A stretch of DNA of 64,000 nt. Origin: Geopseudomonas sagittaria (GTDB lineage Bacteria > Pseudomonadota > Gammaproteobacteria > Pseudomonadales > Pseudomonadaceae). The notes beneath the pieces were generated by a model. That model searched no databases. It saw only the letters and a program-made list of their open reading frames with translations, and was not told the origin of the DNA. A program made the position numbers and the translations under genes. Numbering within the stretch: the first letter of the stretch is position 1; the number at the start of each line of letters is the position of its first letter. The stretch spans positions 1-64,000 of the forward strand of contig NZ_FOXM01000014.1 of assembly GCF_900115715.1 (NCBI RefSeq), read 5' to 3'. Of this stretch, positions 18,361-27,246 are shown piece by piece.

Positions 18361-19166
18361 GCCGCCTGCAGAGCCGCTTCGCCGCCCTGAAGCAAGAGAA
18401 CCGCGCCGCCCTGGTCACCTTCGTCACCGCCGGCGACCCGGACTACGCCACCTCGCTGGAAATCCTCAAGGGCCTGCCGGACGCCGGCGCCGACGTGATC
18501 GAGCTGGGCATGCCGTTCACCGACCCGATGGCCGACGGCCCGGCGATCCAGCTGGCCAACATCCGCGCCCTCGGCAACGGCCAGAACATGGCGAAAACCC
18601 TGCAGATGGTCCGCGAGTTCCGCACCGGCAACCAGGACACCCCGCTGGTGCTGATGGGCTACTACAACCCGATCTTCTGCTACGGCGTGGCACGCTTCGT
18701 CGCCGACGCCAAGGCAGCCGGCGTCGACGGCCTGATCGTGGTCGACCTGCCGCCGGAGCACAACGACGAACTGTGCGACCCGGCCCAGGCCGCCGGCATC
18801 GACTTCATCCGCCTGACGACGCCCACGACGGACGACGCCCGCCTGCCCACCGTGCTCAACGGCAGCTCCGGCTTCGTCTACTACGTCTCGGTGGCCGGCG
18901 TCACCGGCGCCGGCGCGGCGAGCATGGACCAGGTGGAAGAAGCCGTCGCCCGCCTGCGCCGCCACACCGACCTGCCGCTGTGCATCGGCTTCGGCATCCG
19001 CACCCCCGAACACGCCGCCGAAATCGCCAAGCGCGCCGATGGCGCGGTGGTGGGGTCGGCGTTGATCGACAGGATTGCCAAGGCTTCGTCGAAGGAGCAG
19101 GCCGTCAGCGATGTGCTGGGGTTGTGCAGGGAGCTGGCCGAGGGCGTGCGCGGGGCGCAGCAATAA
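18357..19166 (+). CDS. trpA: Tryptophan synthase alpha subunit
   Basis: A 269-residue TIM-barrel subunit that splits indole-3-glycerol phosphate into indole and glyceraldehyde-3-phosphate. Catalytic E49 and D60 lie in [16 protein letters not shown], at the same numbers as in E. coli TrpA. It is translationally coupled to trpB by a 4-bp overlap and followed by a strong terminator, so trpBA is a two-gene operon. Confidence 0.98.
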
Positions 19167-19195
19167 GCGCTTGCGTTACCTGAGCCAGAGGTGAG

Positions 19196-19235
19196 AAAAA
19201 GCCGCTGCTTCCTGGAGGAGGCAGCGGCTTTCTTC
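19196..19235 (+). terminator. Rho-independent terminator of trpBA
   Basis: AAAAAGCCGCTGC pairs with GCAGCGGCTTTCTT (19221-19234) around a 12-nt loop. It separates trpBA from the AT-rich cassette that starts 38 bp later. Confidence 0.85.
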
Positions 19236-19272
19236 GCAAATGGATCGTATCAATTAATCAAGGAGCTCATAG

Positions 19273-19674
19273 ATGTCCTTCACGCCTGATATGGCATCAG
19301 CCTCTCACCGCCATTTGCAAGCGGCTGACGTGTTGGAGGGGGGGAACGGTCGAGCCGTTGCCGGTTATCTCTATGGGTTGGCCGCAGAATGCGCAGTGAA
19401 AGCAATGATGCTTGAGGCAGGCATTAGACAGTTGTCGCAGAACGAAAAGAGCGATGACCCATACTATGCGCATTTTCCACATCTAAGAGTAATGCTGCGT
19501 GAGAGTTTGGAAGGGCGTTCAGCGACAGTTCTTAGACGATTTATTGAGGACGACAATTTTTTCTCTTACTGGGACATCAAAATACGCTATTGCAGGAGAG
19601 ACCAAGTTCTTGAAAGATGGATAGACACATGGAGAGATCAGGCCCGCCAAGTTGTTTCAGCAATAGGCACTTGA
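19273..19674 (+). CDS. HEPN-like small protein, first gene of an AT-rich cassette
   Basis: A 133-residue all-helical protein. GRAVAGYLYGLAAECAVKAM (residues about 26-45) resembles helix 2 of HEPN-superfamily proteins (for example those paired with nucleotidyltransferases). The C-terminal part has DIKIRYCRRDQVLERW. A canonical RNase RX4-6H motif is not evident, so it may be a non-catalytic or divergent HEPN. AAGGAG precedes ATG 19273. Codon usage is far more AT-rich than in trpA. The next gene starts 12 bp after the stop, and the third gene overlaps the second, so this is one operon. HEPN assignment is by pattern, not by search. Confidence 0.6.
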   Translation: MSFTPDMASASHRHLQAADVLEGGNGRAVAGYLYGLAAECAVKAMMLEAGIRQLSQNEKSDDPYYAHFPHLRVMLRESLEGRSATVLRRFIEDDNFFSYWDIKIRYCRRDQVLERWIDTWRDQARQVVSAIGT

Positions 19675-19686
19675 GGAGAAAAAATC

Positions 19687-21051
19687 ATGGTTAGATTTGA
19701 CGACAGTCTGCAAGTGCTTGTAAGAAAAGTTGCCGAACTCCTTGGGCGGGACCTCCTCTCCACTGGGACGGTCCTGCGGGATGCAACAGGCAGGCTTTCT
19801 TTCTTTTGCTCTGCAGAGCTAGATGAAACCATGCACTCCAACTTGACAGAGGCATTAAGAATAGAGCTAGGGCCTTATGCCGGAAAAGATCGAGTCGTGG
19901 TTAGCTCCTCCGAGTACGGTGCATCCCGAGTTCTCCAGGACAACAAGGCGATTAAAATAAAAGTTGGCGACTTCCTTATCAGACTGATTGATAGACGCAT
20001 TGTTGGGGCCGACTGGCTCCGTGCACCTGTTAGGCTGGCGCCACCACCCCCTCGATTTGTCTTCTCTAGCATTAAGGGTGGGGTTGGTCGATCAACTGCA
20101 CTGGCAGTGGCTGCATCGGCCTTATCGAGGCAAGGTCTTCGAGTGCTGGCAATCGATTTAGACATTGAGGCGCCTGGGCTTGGGCCAATTCTGCTTAACA
20201 ATGACACCTTGCCCGAGTTCGGATTGATTGATGCCCTTGTTGAAAATGGAATATCCTCACTGGATAGACAGTTCCTTGCCGATCTAATAGGGCCATCTGA
20301 CCTCTCGAATGGACGCGGACGTATTGATGTTATTCCAGTGCTTGGCAAGAGATCATTGAATAATCCTGGGGATGTCTTGTCAAAAATTGCACGCGCATAT
20401 ATGGAAGACATTAGGGAGGATGGAAGTGTTGCAACAATTTTGGACCAAATAAGCGAACTGATTGACTATTTCTCCGACTCAAGACAGTACGATGCAATAT
20501 TAGTTGACGCTCGTGCGGGGCTGCATGAGACGACTGCGTCTGCCATACTAGGAATGGGAGCAGAAGTTCTTCTTTTTGGACTTGATGAGCCCCAGACATT
20601 TCAGGGATTCAAAATTCTTCTCTCTCATATGGCGAGATTTGGTGATGAGGGAGCGGTTCCAGAGTGGCTTTCGAGATTTACAATCGTCCAAGGCAAGGCA
20701 CCCAGCGAGCTAGAAAGCCGACAGCGTTTTGCAGATCAATGCCGAAGCCTGTTTGCTGACCTCGGCTTGGTTGAAAAGCCCGACATTTGTAATCCTGAAT
20801 CCTTCTCACAAGAGATTGGATTTGGGGACATTGAATGGAACGACGAAGCTTCAGATGAAGACATCCTTCCAAAAGAAGACTATCAATACCTAGAGCCTTT
20901 AGCGATCTTGGATGATCCTAAATTTAAAGGATTCAACCCTCAGGCACATACTGACCTTCTGGAAAGTGGAGTCTATGTCGCAGCTTATGAGCAGCTACTG
21001 GCAAAAATTCGCGCCACTATCCCTGATAGTTTGGAGGGTATAAATCCATGA
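19687..21051 (+). CDS. ParA/MinD-like ATPase with variant KGGVGRS P-loop
   Basis: A 454-residue protein. Residues 1-120 form an unrecognised N-terminal alpha/beta domain. The SIMIBI-class NTPase domain starts with the deviant Walker A SSIKGGVGRSTA (K130-S136): the signature lysine K130 is kept but the usual GK(T/S) lysine is R135. AIDLDIEAPGLG (155-166) is switch I-like and YDAILVDARAGLHE (268-281) is the Walker B region. Chromosome-partitioning and cell-division ATPases share this fold, but the flanking genes and composition argue for an accessory role. TTGAGGAGAA precedes ATG 19687. Its 3' end overlaps the next gene (ATGATGA at 21048). Confidence 0.75.
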   Translation: MVRFDDSLQVLVRKVAELLGRDLLSTGTVLRDATGRLSFFCSAELDETMHSNLTEALRIELGPYAGKDRVVVSSSEYGASRVLQDNKAIKIKVGDFLIRLIDRRIVGADWLRAPVRLAPPPPRFVFSSIKGGVGRSTALAVAASALSRQGLRVLAIDLDIEAPGLGPILLNNDTLPEFGLIDALVENGISSLDRQFLADLIGPSDLSNGRGRIDVIPVLGKRSLNNPGDVLSKIARAYMEDIREDGSVATILDQISELIDYFSDSRQYDAILVDARAGLHETTASAILGMGAEVLLFGLDEPQTFQGFKILLSHMARFGDEGAVPEWLSRFTIVQGKAPSELESRQRFADQCRSLFADLGLVEKPDICNPESFSQEIGFGDIEWNDEASDEDILPKEDYQYLEPLAILDDPKFKGFNPQAHTDLLESGVYVAAYEQLLAKIRATIPDSLEGINP

Positions 21052-22511
21052 TGAACCAAGCCGACTACCTTGCTATACGCCTTGCTATTTCTTCCATCCC
21101 TGGCGATGTTTCCAATGATGCTGTCGGAGCGCATGTCGCGAGAATAGAGGAATTATTTGCGCCAGACTCACATGCTGTTGCCCTTAACCCAACTACTCCA
21201 GTGGTCGTAGGGGCAAGAGGTAGTGGAAAAAGCTTCTGGTCAGGCGCATTAGGCCAAGAAAGCACTTTAAAGGCAGCGGCGAAAGCCTACCCTAAGTTGG
21301 GCCTGGAGCGCCTTGACGTTCGATTTGGCTATACTGGAATCCCTGGACCTGGAGGAGTTTCCTCAGATGCTGTTGACTCCTTGGTTCCCTCAGACGCCTC
21401 GCTTGAGCAGGCCAAGATATTTTGGTGGGGAACAGTAATTCATGCCATACAGCGAAACCGAGGAACTGACAAGAAGTTATCTGACTGCATGGCATTAGGT
21501 GCTAGCTGGGAGGACAGAGAAAACATCATCCTAAAATGCGAGAATGAACTGTCGCCCCAAGGAAGGATGCTTCTCATTGTATATGATGCTGTTGATACAG
21601 TAGCGAGAACCTGGCCTCGCAGGCGCCTTTTGACAGAGGCGCTGTTTGAGGTTGTTTGGGCGATGAGGGCTTATCGGAACATTCGAGTTAAAATTTTTAT
21701 CAGACCTGACCAGATAGATGATGATTCTCTTCGGTTTGTTGAGCTTCCCAAGCTGCGAGCAGGTTCGGTTCGCTTAACTTGGCAATGGACAGATCTTTAT
21801 GGCCTTTTGTTTTCCAGGATGGCATTAAATTCCTCATCGGACGCAAAGAAGGCTTTCGAAAAACTCCTTATTTCGTGTGGTTTGCCAGCGGCTGATCAAG
21901 AATCCGTGCTAACCAGGCGTTGGTCATTGGTCACAGACGAAGCGGACCAGAAGAAACTGATGAGCGCCATCTCTGGACCTTATATGGGATCAGGAGTTCA
22001 TGCCTATAAAAAAGGGATAACATACGACTGGCCTTTAAAACACTCTGCTGACGCTTTTTCTGAAGTAACTCCACGAAGTTTTTTAGGCCTAATGGTTGCG
22101 GCCGCCAAGCACGGAATGGCACCTGTCGACAAAGTGGTGAGCCCAGATGGGATTAGGCATGGCCTGAGGGAAGCGTCGAAAACGCGTGTGGATCAGCTAC
22201 ATCAAGAGTTCCCCTGGATTAAAGGTGTATTGGCGCCAATGGCGGGCCTTCTTTTACCTCAGGAAGAACAGACTGTATTTGAAGTCTGGACTCGGGCTAA
22301 CACGGTAGCAAAGCTAATCTCTGATGCTTCCGAACAAAAATATTTGCTTCCATTCAAAAGCAACGAAGACCGTTCAGAATTCGGCCTTTTTAGTGTTCTG
22401 GAGGAAATAGGGGTTATGTTCAGAAGGAAAGATGGCCGACTAGACATGCCAGATCTATTCAGGGTAGCAGCTAGACTATTGAAGAAGGGTGGGATCACCC
22501 CCAATGGTTAG
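21048..22511 (+). CDS. P-loop ATPase, third gene of the cassette
   Basis: A 487-residue protein with Walker A GARGSGKS at residues 55-62 and a Walker B-like strand MLLIVYDAVDTV at 174-185. VKIFIRPDQID (about 214-224) follows as a possible sensor strand, suggesting an AAA+/STAND-type ATPase. The C-terminus (about 445-480, FSVLEEIGVMFRRKDGRLD) looks like a winged-helix domain. No nuclease or toxin motif is visible. GGAGGG precedes two tandem ATGs; 21048 overlaps the upstream stop and is preferred. Function unknown; with its neighbours it is a candidate defence or stress-response module. Confidence 0.7.
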   Translation: MMNQADYLAIRLAISSIPGDVSNDAVGAHVARIEELFAPDSHAVALNPTTPVVVGARGSGKSFWSGALGQESTLKAAAKAYPKLGLERLDVRFGYTGIPGPGGVSSDAVDSLVPSDASLEQAKIFWWGTVIHAIQRNRGTDKKLSDCMALGASWEDRENIILKCENELSPQGRMLLIVYDAVDTVARTWPRRRLLTEALFEVVWAMRAYRNIRVKIFIRPDQIDDDSLRFVELPKLRAGSVRLTWQWTDLYGLLFSRMALNSSSDAKKAFEKLLISCGLPAADQESVLTRRWSLVTDEADQKKLMSAISGPYMGSGVHAYKKGITYDWPLKHSADAFSEVTPRSFLGLMVAAAKHGMAPVDKVVSPDGIRHGLREASKTRVDQLHQEFPWIKGVLAPMAGLLLPQEEQTVFEVWTRANTVAKLISDASEQKYLLPFKSNEDRSEFGLFSVLEEIGVMFRRKDGRLDMPDLFRVAARLLKKGGITPNG

Positions 22512-22518
22512 TTAATCA

Positions 22519-22626
22519 TTTTGATCGTGCCACGCTCCTGCGAGAGTACTTCGCCCGGACCGTTCTTGGGACGGGAGGCGGAGCGTCCTTGGTCCGGCTA
22601 CCACACAGAAGCGCGGTAGCCATCAG
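22519..22626. repeat. REP-like repeat, family A copy 1 (diverged)
   Basis: Begins TTTTGATCGTGCCACGCTCC, has GGAGCGTCC in the middle and ends GTAGCCATCAG. The same ordered blocks occur at 22745-22833 and 24537-24630. Starts 8 bp after the cassette ends. Confidence 0.55.
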
Positions 22627-22629
22627 CAT

Positions 22630-22711
22630 GTAGGGAGGACAACGGCGCAGCCTTGTCCACCAATCCACATCGGCAGAGGCGGACAATCGCTACGCGAGTT
22701 GCCCACCCTAC
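22630..22711. repeat. REPIN-like inverted repeat, family B
   Basis: GTAGGGAGGACAAC at 22630 is inverted relative to GTTGCCCACCCTAC ending at 22711, differing at two positions. The inner part contains CCTTGTCCACC and GGCGGACAATCGC. The layout matches REP doublets common in Pseudomonas genomes. Confidence 0.6.
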
Positions 22712-22744
22712 GAATACCGAACGCCTCAGGACGCCGCTCTCCCA

Positions 22745-22833
22745 TTTGATCGTGCCCACACTCCCGCGTGGGAACGCGGCTCAAGCCGCTCCTGCGGCTG
22801 AACACGGAGCGTCCAGAGGTCAGGAGCCATCAG
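22745..22833. repeat. REP-like repeat, family A copy 2
   Basis: TTTGATCGTGCCCACACTCC, then CACGGAGCGTCCAGAGGTCA and GGAGCCATCAG. Contains internal hairpins (CCCGCGTGGGAACGCGG region; AGCCGCTCCTGCGGCT). Confidence 0.65.
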
Positions 22834-22886
22834 AAAAAACCATGGGCTGTGGAAAAGTGGTTATCCACAGCCATGCGGAGGGCCGC

Positions 22887-23207
22887 TCAGGGCAGCGGCC
22901 TGACCTCCGCCAGCTCAAGCTCCACCGAAAGCAGATCGACCAGCGCGGCCAGGCTCATGCTTTCGTAGTTGTCGAAGGCGTCCTCGTCGAGTTGCTCGAC
23001 ATACACCCTGTAATGCTCCGGTGGCTGGCCCAGGGTGTTCAGCCAGATCCGCAGATGCGAATCGCTGGAGTGCAGGAGATAGACCGCCCTCGCGTCCTGC
23101 TGGCTCCCGGTATCCACCACGAAGGCATCCGGCCCCAGTTGCTCGGTCAGCAGTAGCAACACGTGCCGGATGTCCTGATGTTTATCCAGCGCCCAGATGT
23201 TCACCAT
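22887..23207 (-). CDS. Hypothetical protein, 106 aa
   Basis: Not recognised. The protein starts MVNIWALDKHQDIRHVLL and is acidic and alternating in beta and alpha character. It has no signal peptide, membrane segment or catalytic motif that I can see. ATG at 23207 has GGAG nine nt upstream; a TTG five codons further out is possible but has no ribosome-binding site. It lies between REP repeats and the divergent yjbQ gene in a region of acquired modules. Coding is likely from the consistent reading frame and codon bias. Confidence 0.6.
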   Translation of the reverse strand: MVNIWALDKHQDIRHVLLLLTEQLGPDAFVVDTGSQQDARAVYLLHSSDSHLRIWLNTLGQPPEHYRVYVEQLDEDAFDNYESMSLAALVDLLSVELELAEVRPLP

Positions 23208-23453
23208 GTCTAGCTTCTCCAAGCTTCACTGCGCCAGCCGCGCCCACCGGACGGCACAGCAGCAGCCCCAAATACCGTTCTACCCGTACCACAAGCAAGA
23301 AATCGACCGCCTCTACCGGAGATCTGGCTGGAGACAGCTGCTGCGTGGGGTACAGCGGCTTTTCTGCGGCTGGCGGAAGGAAGTTATCCACCGTAGCCAG
23401 GGGCCGAGACGGATAAAATCTGTCCACTTTCGGACAAGGGAAGACCGTGTACC

Positions 23454-23873
23454 ATGTGGCACCAATACCGCTTCCAGCTCAAACCCCGCCGCCGCGGCTT
23501 CCACCTGGTGACGGACGAGATCCTCGCCCACTGCCCGGCGATCCGCGAGATGCGCGTCGGGCTGATGCATGTGTTCATCCAGCACACCTCCGCCTCGCTG
23601 ACCCTCAACGAGAACGCCGACCCCACGGTACGCAGCGACTTCGAGGCCTGGTTCAACCGCGCCGTGCCCGAGGACGAGCCCTACTACCAGCACACCCTGG
23701 AAGGCAGCGACGACCTGCCGGCGCATATCAAGAGCAGTCTGCTGGGCAACAGCTTGAGCCTGCCGATCACCAATGGCAGGCCGAATCTGGGTACCTGGCA
23801 GGGGATCTACCTCTGCGAACACCGCGAGCACGGCGGGGCGCGGACACTGGTGGTGACCTTGCACGGGGAATGA
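23454..23873 (+). CDS. yjbQ: YjbQ family protein (UPF0047)
   Basis: A 139-residue protein of the YjbQ/UPF0047 family. The conserved MHVFIQHTSASLTLNENAD and LPAHIKSSLLGNSLSLPI segments and the C-terminal GTWQGIYLCEHR are all present. Family members form trimers and have been reported to show weak thiamine-phosphate synthase activity, but the physiological role is unsettled. ATG at 23454 gives the usual family length. It stands alone between a hypothetical gene and a toxin-antitoxin pair. Confidence 0.92.
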   Translation: MWHQYRFQLKPRRRGFHLVTDEILAHCPAIREMRVGLMHVFIQHTSASLTLNENADPTVRSDFEAWFNRAVPEDEPYYQHTLEGSDDLPAHIKSSLLGNSLSLPITNGRPNLGTWQGIYLCEHREHGGARTLVVTLHGE

Positions 23874-26487: not shown

Positions 26488-27246
26488 ATGAACAAGGCAA
26501 CGCAACCCCGCTGGACGTCCGGCCGAGTCCGCGACGGCATCGAGGAGATCCACATCCGCAAGTGGAACTTCTTCATCGACTACGTGCAGGAAACCTTCTC
26601 GCCCGGCTGCGGCTGGATCTATCGCGGCCATCGCAAGGACTACTACAAGCTCGAGTCGACCATCGACCGGCGGATCGCCGACAAGTCGAAGACCGCCAAG
26701 CTGCGCCAGGAGCAGCTCAATCGCTTCAAGATGGCCATCCGCGGCAAGCGGGGCGCCAATCCGCCGCAGTACGACGAGCCGCTGGAGTGGTGGGCACTGG
26801 GCCAGCACTTCGAGCTGCTGACGCCGCTGGTCGACTGGACCCACTCGCCCTACACCGCGGCGTTCTTCGCCTTCGCCAACACCGACAAGGACGACACCCG
26901 CAAGCGCATCATCGTGTCGCTGAACAAGCACGAGGTCGAAGGGCGGCCCAATCTGGCCCGGATGGTGCGCTTCTACACGCCGAACTCCGACGAGAATGCG
27001 CGGGTGCTCGGCCAGAACGGGCTGTTCTCCTATTCGGAGACCGGCGAGGAGCTGGAAGCGCTGATCGCCAGCGAGTTTGCCGGCTCCAACCAGGCGATCA
27101 TCCGCAAGATCCACCTGCCCAACGCGGAAAGGATCGACGTGCTGCGCGGCCTCGAGCAGATGAACATCAACCACCTGACGCTGTTCCCCGATCTCAGTGG
27201 CGCGAGCAACTACGCCAACATGCAGTTCGAGCTTTACTCCAGATAG
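26488..27246 (+). CDS. FRG-domain protein
   Basis: A 252-residue protein. The FRG signature is complete: WIYRGH at 43-48, then GQHFELLTPLVDWTHSPYTA with H107, D116, S120 and A124, followed by aliphatic strand FFAFAN. FRG domains occur in phage-defence and toxin contexts and have been suggested to be related to ADP-ribosyl-transfer or nucleic-acid-processing folds. No activity can be assigned here. It lies 74 bp after a methyltransferase gene and 74 bp before a FUSC-family gene, on the same strand. Base composition is similar to neighbours. Confidence 0.8.
   Translation: MNKATQPRWTSGRVRDGIEEIHIRKWNFFIDYVQETFSPGCGWIYRGHRKDYYKLESTIDRRIADKSKTAKLRQEQLNRFKMAIRGKRGANPPQYDEPLEWWALGQHFELLTPLVDWTHSPYTAAFFAFANTDKDDTRKRIIVSLNKHEVEGRPNLARMVRFYTPNSDENARVLGQNGLFSYSETGEELEALIASEFAGSNQAIIRKIHLPNAERIDVLRGLEQMNINHLTLFPDLSGASNYANMQFELYSR

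Follow-up and report, generated by a model that had tools for sequence, protein, structure and literature searches.

A PDC-M28 cassette behind trpBA in Geopseudomonas sagittaria: a candidate three-component abortive-infection module with a predicted alternative HEPN site

Introduction

What do three tightly linked, AT-rich genes do directly behind trpBA in Geopseudomonas sagittaria, and do they belong to a system that has been recorded before? We examined this question in a stretch of 64,000 nucleotides (contig NZ_FOXM01000014.1 of assembly GCF_900115715.1, positions 1 to 64,000), hereafter called the window. The three genes encode, in this order, a HEPN-like protein (M28A, or A), a ParA/MinD-like ATPase with a KGGVGR motif (M28B, or B) and a second P-loop ATPase (M28C, or C). 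The original prediction, made from the DNA letters, had proposed an accessory cassette, perhaps for defence, as a candidate for an undescribed system. In this study we used computation to compare the cassette with catalogued systems, to survey its homologues and to weigh explanations of its function. Its profile matches identify it as the already catalogued putative phage-defence candidate type PDC-M28, and it is probably a horizontally mobile abortive-infection module of three components, in which B and C would guard a HEPN RNase.

Results

The cassette matches all three models of PDC-M28

The three proteins were compared with the component models of PADLOC-DB 2.0.0 (dated 2023); PADLOC's own rule file was not part of the comparison. 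M28A matched PDC-M28A (E = 1.2e-30, model positions 3-129 of 138), M28B matched PDC-M28B (1.3e-97, positions 1-433 of 438) and M28C matched PDC-M28C (2.9e-119, positions 1-478 of 480), and the three genes are adjacent in the order A-B-C. Since all three proteins match these models, the proposal of an undescribed system was rejected, while the proposal of a compact, horizontally acquired accessory cassette with a probable defence function stood. The match is not one to a characterised defence system, as no experiment on PDC-M28 was found in the literature. Our search, which scarcely covered preprints and subscription journals, found no paper naming or testing PDC-M28 and no text combining embedded, BREX (bacteriophage exclusion), PADLOC and M28, and it found the letters KGGVGR only in an unrelated context. 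According to the accessible text of one source, the putative defence candidates of the PDC series came from 'guilt-by-embedding', and most are without experimental validation (PMC12988326). The accessible part of another mentions stand-alone HEPN genes near BREX and does not mention the A-B-C trio (PMC12839542).

A, B and C form a unit

A total of 98 loci with C were surveyed (12 plasmid, 14 viral-contig and 24 genome stretches, and 48 species-genome contigs), and nine of them were dropped as near-copies. As many as 80 of the 89 non-redundant loci carried A-B-C in that order on one strand, and the commonest junction was a 4-bp overlap under our own start-codon rule. The nine loci outside the 80 were L100, which was flagged for holding two cassettes, four that were cut by contig edges (L033, L133, L155 and L158), a fragment (L157), a remote homologue (L084) and two true exceptions (L068 and L076). 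Among 398 phylum genomes, the strong A places (E <= 1e-12) adjoined C in 19 of 19 cases and the strong B places (E <= 1e-90) likewise in 19 of 19, each in 18 genomes, and 2 of the 21 strong C places (19 genomes) were without A and B. Six weaker A places were left out of the A-C count. At E <= 0.001 the PDC-M28B search picks up ParA-type ATPases generally and was thus unspecific, with matches in 396 of the 398 genomes and in every one of the 14 controls; only the 19 places at the stricter threshold were counted. The pairwise distances of A, B and C were also correlated (Mantel r 0.79-0.88, 79 loci), and none of 999 permutations gave a value as high. By its conserved order and co-varying distances, the cassette is a real unit. 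That strong A matches never stand alone suggests a toxin that needs its keepers.

Two single loci are recorded here for their arrangement. L100 (3529-11433), from a family member, holds two convergent PDC-M28 cassettes tail to tail on one contig, and their C proteins are 31-32% identical to that of the window. In L072 (11813-12361) the A gene is broken by an in-frame stop, and B and C are open.

M28A has a HEPN-like fold and a predicted alternative active site

The AlphaFold model of M28A, built with 50 sequences, had a predicted local distance difference test score (pLDDT) of 92.4, and the first 12 Foldseek matches were all HEPN or HepT structures. These included 1ufb, which we take to be a HEPN/HepT protein, and, in fifth place, 2hsb, with a template modelling (TM) score of 0.39-0.40. 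A further match, 2q00, is assigned to HEPN in the accessible text of PMC3710099. The only Pfam models matched among 50 M28A homologues at E <= 0.01 were the HEPN model PF05168, AbiV (one homologue) and DUF6638, and the M28A of the window matched no Pfam model. Judged by the helical fold of the model, M28A would belong to the HEPN superfamily, and the earlier description of the first protein as HEPN-like is borne out by this fold and by the profiles of some homologues, although the E-values are weak.

Residue conservation was counted in alignments from which the nine near-copies, L084 and rows of fewer than 100 (A), 350 (B) or 400 (C) amino acids had been excluded. The canonical HEPN RNase motif, Rx4-6H, was present in only 5 of 80 rows and was rejected for M28A. 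Near-invariant residues were E39 and K43 (80/80 rows each) and H67, R105 and Y106 (79/80 each); the one row without H67 and R105 was L020, a form in which B and C are fused. As the model places them, E39 and K43 lie in helix 27-48, H67 in the insert that follows and R105 in helix 102-106. The accessible text of PMC3710099 describes AbiV and AF0298 (2hsb) as having kept the basic residue and lost the motif histidine, with a second conserved histidine in the insert between helices 2 and 3, and it proposes an alternative RNase site for them. For HEPN proteins in general, it notes that helix 2 carries an acidic residue close to the motif. Sequence and model point to these same features in M28A, namely the retained arginine, the histidine between helices 2 and 3 and the acidic residue of helix 2. 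Because the residue pattern matches the AbiV/AF0298 layout with its proposed RNase site, M28A is predicted to be an RNase that cuts RNA through E39/K43/H67/R105-Y106. Identity with the dyad of HEPN(MAE_18760) and a ParA ATPase was also considered and was rejected, as Rx4-6H is absent and none of the 50 homologues matched an MAE_18760-type model, which is presumably present in Pfam.

M28B and M28C are two different ATPases that are sometimes fused

M28B matched NF047398 of NCBIfam, the KGGVGR-motif variant ATPase (1.1e-49, 169.4 bits against a cut-off of 90), in agreement with its first reading as a KGGVGRS ParA-like ATPase, and it is related to MinD/ParA/ArsA structures around the P-loop; its first ~115 amino acids gave no Pfam match. 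ParA and MinD carry a deviant Walker A motif, KGGxxGK[ST], which is not that of M28B. All 82 rows had KGG[VA]GR[ST] (KGGVGRS in 77, KGGVGRT in 4 and KGGAGRT in 1), so that the P-loop lysine is an arginine (R135) in every row, and the signature lysine K130 is kept. This arginine suggests that nucleotide hydrolysis by M28B may be altered.

The AlphaFold model of M28C (pLDDT 93.9) had Orc2 as its best Foldseek match (4.4e-5), followed by Cdc6 and the Pyrococcus STAND structure 2qen, and BrxC structures took five of ranks 6-12 (E 0.001-0.004, TM 0.28-0.38); across all of these matches, TM on the query was 0.28-0.41. By its modelled fold, M28C is an ORC/Cdc6-STAND-type AAA+ ATPase, and it had rightly been called a second P-loop ATPase. 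Walker A K61 and Walker B D180 were present in 86/86 rows. The match of M28C to NF047389 (Sll1717-family P-loop ATPase) reached 53.3 bits, below the cut-off of 75. Profile searches of A and C were also made against solved-structure sequences; one gave a single match at E 0.26, and the other gave ribosome recycling factor (0.0023) and four matches at E >0.6, which we did not believe.

B and C share a single reading frame in L020 and L083, and in the phylum draw weak B-like and C-like matches lie in one frame of 876-996 codons at 13 further places, paired by contig and frame length. These fusions support the view that B and C may work as one machine.

The two fold classes also bear on a different explanation, in which the cassette serves a mobile element for its replication or partition, with C as an ORC/Cdc6-like initiator, B as its ParA-like partner and A as an accessory HEPN protein. 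Orc2 and Cdc6 are closest to C in fold and B falls in the ParA/MinD group; repC lies near the copy in L011 and repA near that in L014, and a gene for a ParB N-terminal domain was seen in the C-only loci L160 and L161. However, those plasmids need such genes anyway, the arginine found in all rows of B is unlike the P-loop of partition ParAs, and BrxC of BREX is a fold relative of C as well. This explanation also leaves the NACHT fusions and Abi_alpha links described below unaccounted for, and we consider it very improbable.

C is found with other immune domains and inside BREX-2 gene sets

In five loci of one genus-level group (L073:8568-13976 on the + strand, L074, L075, L076 and L077), C is extended into long open reading frames (ORFs) of 1337-1803 codons, and the extensions of the three put through Pfam contained a calcineurin-like phosphoesterase and a NACHT domain. 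One of the five, L076, is without A and B. In L068, which also lacks A and B, an Abi_alpha gene (PF14337, 4.9e-32) precedes C. Near the C-terminus, the extended ORF of L073 contains short, degenerate repeats in which D, F, A and R are abundant.

C was found on 21 of 72,556 plasmids, and 18 of these copies were read. Three sit inside BREX-2 gene sets, four, including two near-copies, are next to a tyrosine recombinase, and two adjoin restriction-type genes. The plasmids on which C stands without its partners belong to Streptomyces and Kitasatospora (L159-L164), with C around 6.8-8.4 kb. M28C was also present in 14 IMG/VR loci.

The BREX-2 embedding raises the question of whether the cassette is an auxiliary of BREX-like or restriction systems, unable to work unless a partner system is present elsewhere in the cell, and the resemblance in fold between C and BrxC would agree with this. 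Against it, the BREX queries matched only the three loci from which they came among the 98, and eight Pgl/BrxC-type queries for BREX type 2 had no match in the window at E <= 1e-4, the rest of the genome not having been searched. The explanation fits three copies but not the many loci in which no BREX match was found, and we give it a low probability.

The plasmid copies could also be those of an addiction or maintenance module, in which A is a toxin and B-C its antitoxin, and the cassette stabilises plasmids and islands with no antiviral role. The presence of C on plasmids and beside tyrosine recombinases fits this explanation, as does the HEPN-ParA/Soj pair that is predicted to be a toxin-antitoxin system in the accessible text of PMC3710099. 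The logic of a toxin and its keepers is common to the addiction and guard models, but the immune-domain links are not: immunity is indicated both by the BREX-2 embedding and by the NACHT and Abi_alpha proteins to which C is fused or next to which it stands. In addition, a pair of large ATPases would make an expensive addiction module, and the copy in the window stands beside trpBA, in a window where three integrase queries found no match. On balance we regard a pure addiction module as unlikely.

Annotation of near neighbours in the window's clade, made with a rough gene finder on 48 loci and without a control set, covered 150 of 168 genes. Phage_integrase was found in 2 of the 150 proteins; beyond the two families named in the Discussion, other PADLOC families were represented by one protein each among the 25 of 89 families listed. 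Of 50 loci scanned for transfer RNA (tRNA) genes, two (L026 and L129) have such a gene roughly 350 bp or less upstream of the cassette.

The cassette shows signs of transfer and occupies a variable stretch behind trpA

The features of the locus are listed in Table 1. All three cassette ORFs are complete, co-directional and ATG-initiated, with a GGAG-type ribosome site upstream of each; the start codon of M28C could be at 21048 or 21051. A 12-bp gap between A and B and a 4-bp overlap (ATGA) between B and C confirmed the tight linkage that had been predicted. The guanine-plus-cytosine (GC) content was 0.485 in 19273-22511 versus 0.675 in the whole window, again as predicted, and the most AT-rich 3.2-kb stretch tested starts at 19251, more than four standard deviations below the mean (mean 0.678, standard deviation 0.045). 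Third-position GC was 0.43-0.48 in the cassette genes, compared with 0.97 in trpB and 0.94 in trpA. The cassette does begin just past the trpBA terminator, but the distance from the stem to the first ATG is 41 bp (19232-19272) and not the 38 bp given originally, which leaves scant space for a promoter. The repeats at its other end were correctly recognised as resembling repetitive extragenic palindromic (REP) elements: parts of 22620-22835 have matches at 27 further sites of this genome, and BLAST found partial matches to the repeats in 4 of 7 congeneric relatives.

Table 1. Features of the PDC-M28 locus in the window (positions in the 64,000-nucleotide stretch).
Feature	Position	Strand	Basis
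M28A, HEPN-like protein, 133 aa (amino acids)	19273..19674	+	ORF, PADLOC, fold
M28B, KGGVGR-variant SIMIBI (ParA/MinD-like) ATPase, 454 aa	19687..21051	+	ORF, PADLOC, NCBIfam
M28C, ORC/Cdc6-STAND-type AAA+ ATPase (by modelled fold), 487 aa	21048..22511	+	ORF, PADLOC, fold
trpBA intrinsic terminator stem	19198..19231	+	inverted repeat 16+16 nucleotides, 94% complementary; fold z = -5.0
REP-like repeats, downstream cassette boundary	22520..22835	.	partial matches in own genome and relatives
Variable stretch from trpA to next conserved gene	19231..23450	.	other content in relatives

In 69 of 78 surveyed loci, the cassette had a lower GC content than the DNA on either side. In the tree of C, the copy of the window grouped with those of Pseudomonas R5 (64% identity), Accumulibacter, Chromatiaceae and Geothrix (Acidobacteriota), while the copy of a congeneric genome (G025) fell in a distant clade, the same-genus copies being 28-29% identical. 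Full-length C was rare, occurring in 5 of 398 family genomes (any match in 7), and no close DNA match of the cassette was found in plasmids or Escherichia coli genomes.

All eight genus genomes examined, that of the window and seven others, carry trpA. BLAST synteny with the relatives stops at 19230-19234 in four of the seven and at 19156-19170 in three, and neither tblastn nor profile searches found M28 proteins in the trpA flanks of any of the seven. Conserved housekeeping genes linked to trpA, which would have spoken against an accessory cassette, were therefore rejected, as 0/7 of these genomes carry the cassette at this site. The next conserved gene (23454-23873) is presumably YjbQ-like. 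Behind trpA the relatives have other content, of 1.5-4.1 kb in six and in a rearranged region in the seventh (L108); L106 and L107 have 1.4 kb in common at 97%, and otherwise only stretches of <200 bp are shared. We offer as a suggestion that the stretch downstream of trpA is a cargo hotspot in the genus, and only as a suggestion because the variability of other intergenic sites had no control.

Other cargo was seen in these flanks. Behind trpA, L107 (1955-3831, - strand) encodes an ATPase and a partner that match HEC-01A and HEC-01B of PADLOC (8.6e-194 and 8.3e-95), and the cargo of one relative weakly matches PDC-M63B (1.4e-11) and PD-T4-10. Further downstream in the window, 26488-27246 (+) encodes an FRG-domain protein (Pfam PF08867, 1.3e-22) that matches the single-gene PADLOC candidate PDC-S15 (8.2e-85); DNA BLAST aligned this stretch with L104 but gave no alignment with L105.

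Discussion

In outline, we favour a guard model for PDC-M28 and judge it rather probable that the cassette is a horizontally mobile abortive-infection module of three components. In this model, B and C would form one nucleotide-loaded complex that binds A and holds it silent. The cue by which C or B would sense infection may be foreign DNA or a protein of the phage; on sensing it, the complex would change its nucleotide state. A, then freed or dimerised, would cut cellular RNA at its alternative HEPN site, and growth would stop ahead of phage release. The RNase activity of A, the guarding role of B-C, the nature of the cue and the protection against phage are all predictions, whereas the existence of the unit, the order and co-variation of its genes, the fold classes, the near-invariant residues, the B-C fusions, the links of C to other immune domains, the BREX-2 embedding of some copies and the signs of transfer were shown by the computations described above.

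Several results weigh against this model. For M28A, Foldseek gave no match at E <= 0.001 (best E 0.098, TM 0.3-0.57), the HEPN profile PF05168 was matched by few homologues and weakly (10/50, best E 0.00068), and the protein of the window is without the canonical Rx4-6H motif, so that it could be a non-catalytic HEPN protein. M28C had no match in 50,697 phage records. No defence family dominated among the near neighbours annotated in the window's clade, where mad2 was found in 5 and DpdF in 3 of the 150 proteins. A consensus scan of 19100-22900 for sigma-70-like promoters found none against 3.0 expected. Finally, C was without A and B in 6 of the 18 plasmid copies read, all of them actinobacterial, as well as in L068 and L076, and the C-only plasmid copies weigh against a strict dependence of the three genes on one another.

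A bolder version of the guard model would take the B-C pair as a general immune sensing engine, similar to nucleotide-binding leucine-rich-repeat (NLR) receptors, with exchangeable effectors. The effectors would be the HEPN RNase with its alternative site, the phosphoesterase-NACHT extension and Abi_alpha, and B-C would act as a guard locked by nucleotide, with the KGGVGR arginine blocking ATP hydrolysis by B until it is triggered. Taken together, we put these ideas forward tentatively, as a joint claim that is more doubtful than not.

PDC-M28 is one of many catalogued defence candidates, and the evidence gathered here sharpens it into a testable hypothesis. The handles gained are the named residues of an unusual HEPN site, a P-loop variant that all rows examined share and an ATPase core that is found with other immune domains. 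As far as our literature search reaches, the following are new: the predicted alternative HEPN site and the counts of its conserved residues, the number of rows with the P-loop arginine, the fusions of B to C, the swapping of effectors around C, and the variability of the stretch that follows trpA. The analysis also directs attention to this stretch in the genus, where a search of the cargo for more systems may pay off.

Comparison with known systems places the cassette as follows. The A, B and C models of the PDC-M28 entry are each matched over nearly full length by the corresponding protein, and the present analysis adds to that entry the evidence on active site, fusions and effector exchange. 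M28A may resemble the AbiV/AF0298-like HEPN proteins (HEPN-T), given that 2hsb is among its fold matches and that the AbiV profile was found in one homologue; unlike those proteins, its strong matches all stand with B and C. M28B has the same SIMIBI fold class as the MinD/ParA/Soj ATPases and the same signature lysine, but it differs from them by R135 in place of the P-loop lysine and by an extra N-terminal region. The HEPN(MAE_18760)-ParA/Soj dyad likewise pairs a HEPN gene with one for a SIMIBI ATPase of the ParA/Soj type, the former proposed as the toxin and the latter as the antitoxin; however, the HEPN(MAE_18760) family keeps Rx4-6H, which M28A does not, and PDC-M28 has a third gene. That third protein, M28C, appears to share the ORC/Cdc6-STAND AAA+ fold with the BREX ATPase BrxC, but it has 487 amino acids, compared with the 1200-1300 residues and further domains given for BrxC in the accessible text of PMC12839542.

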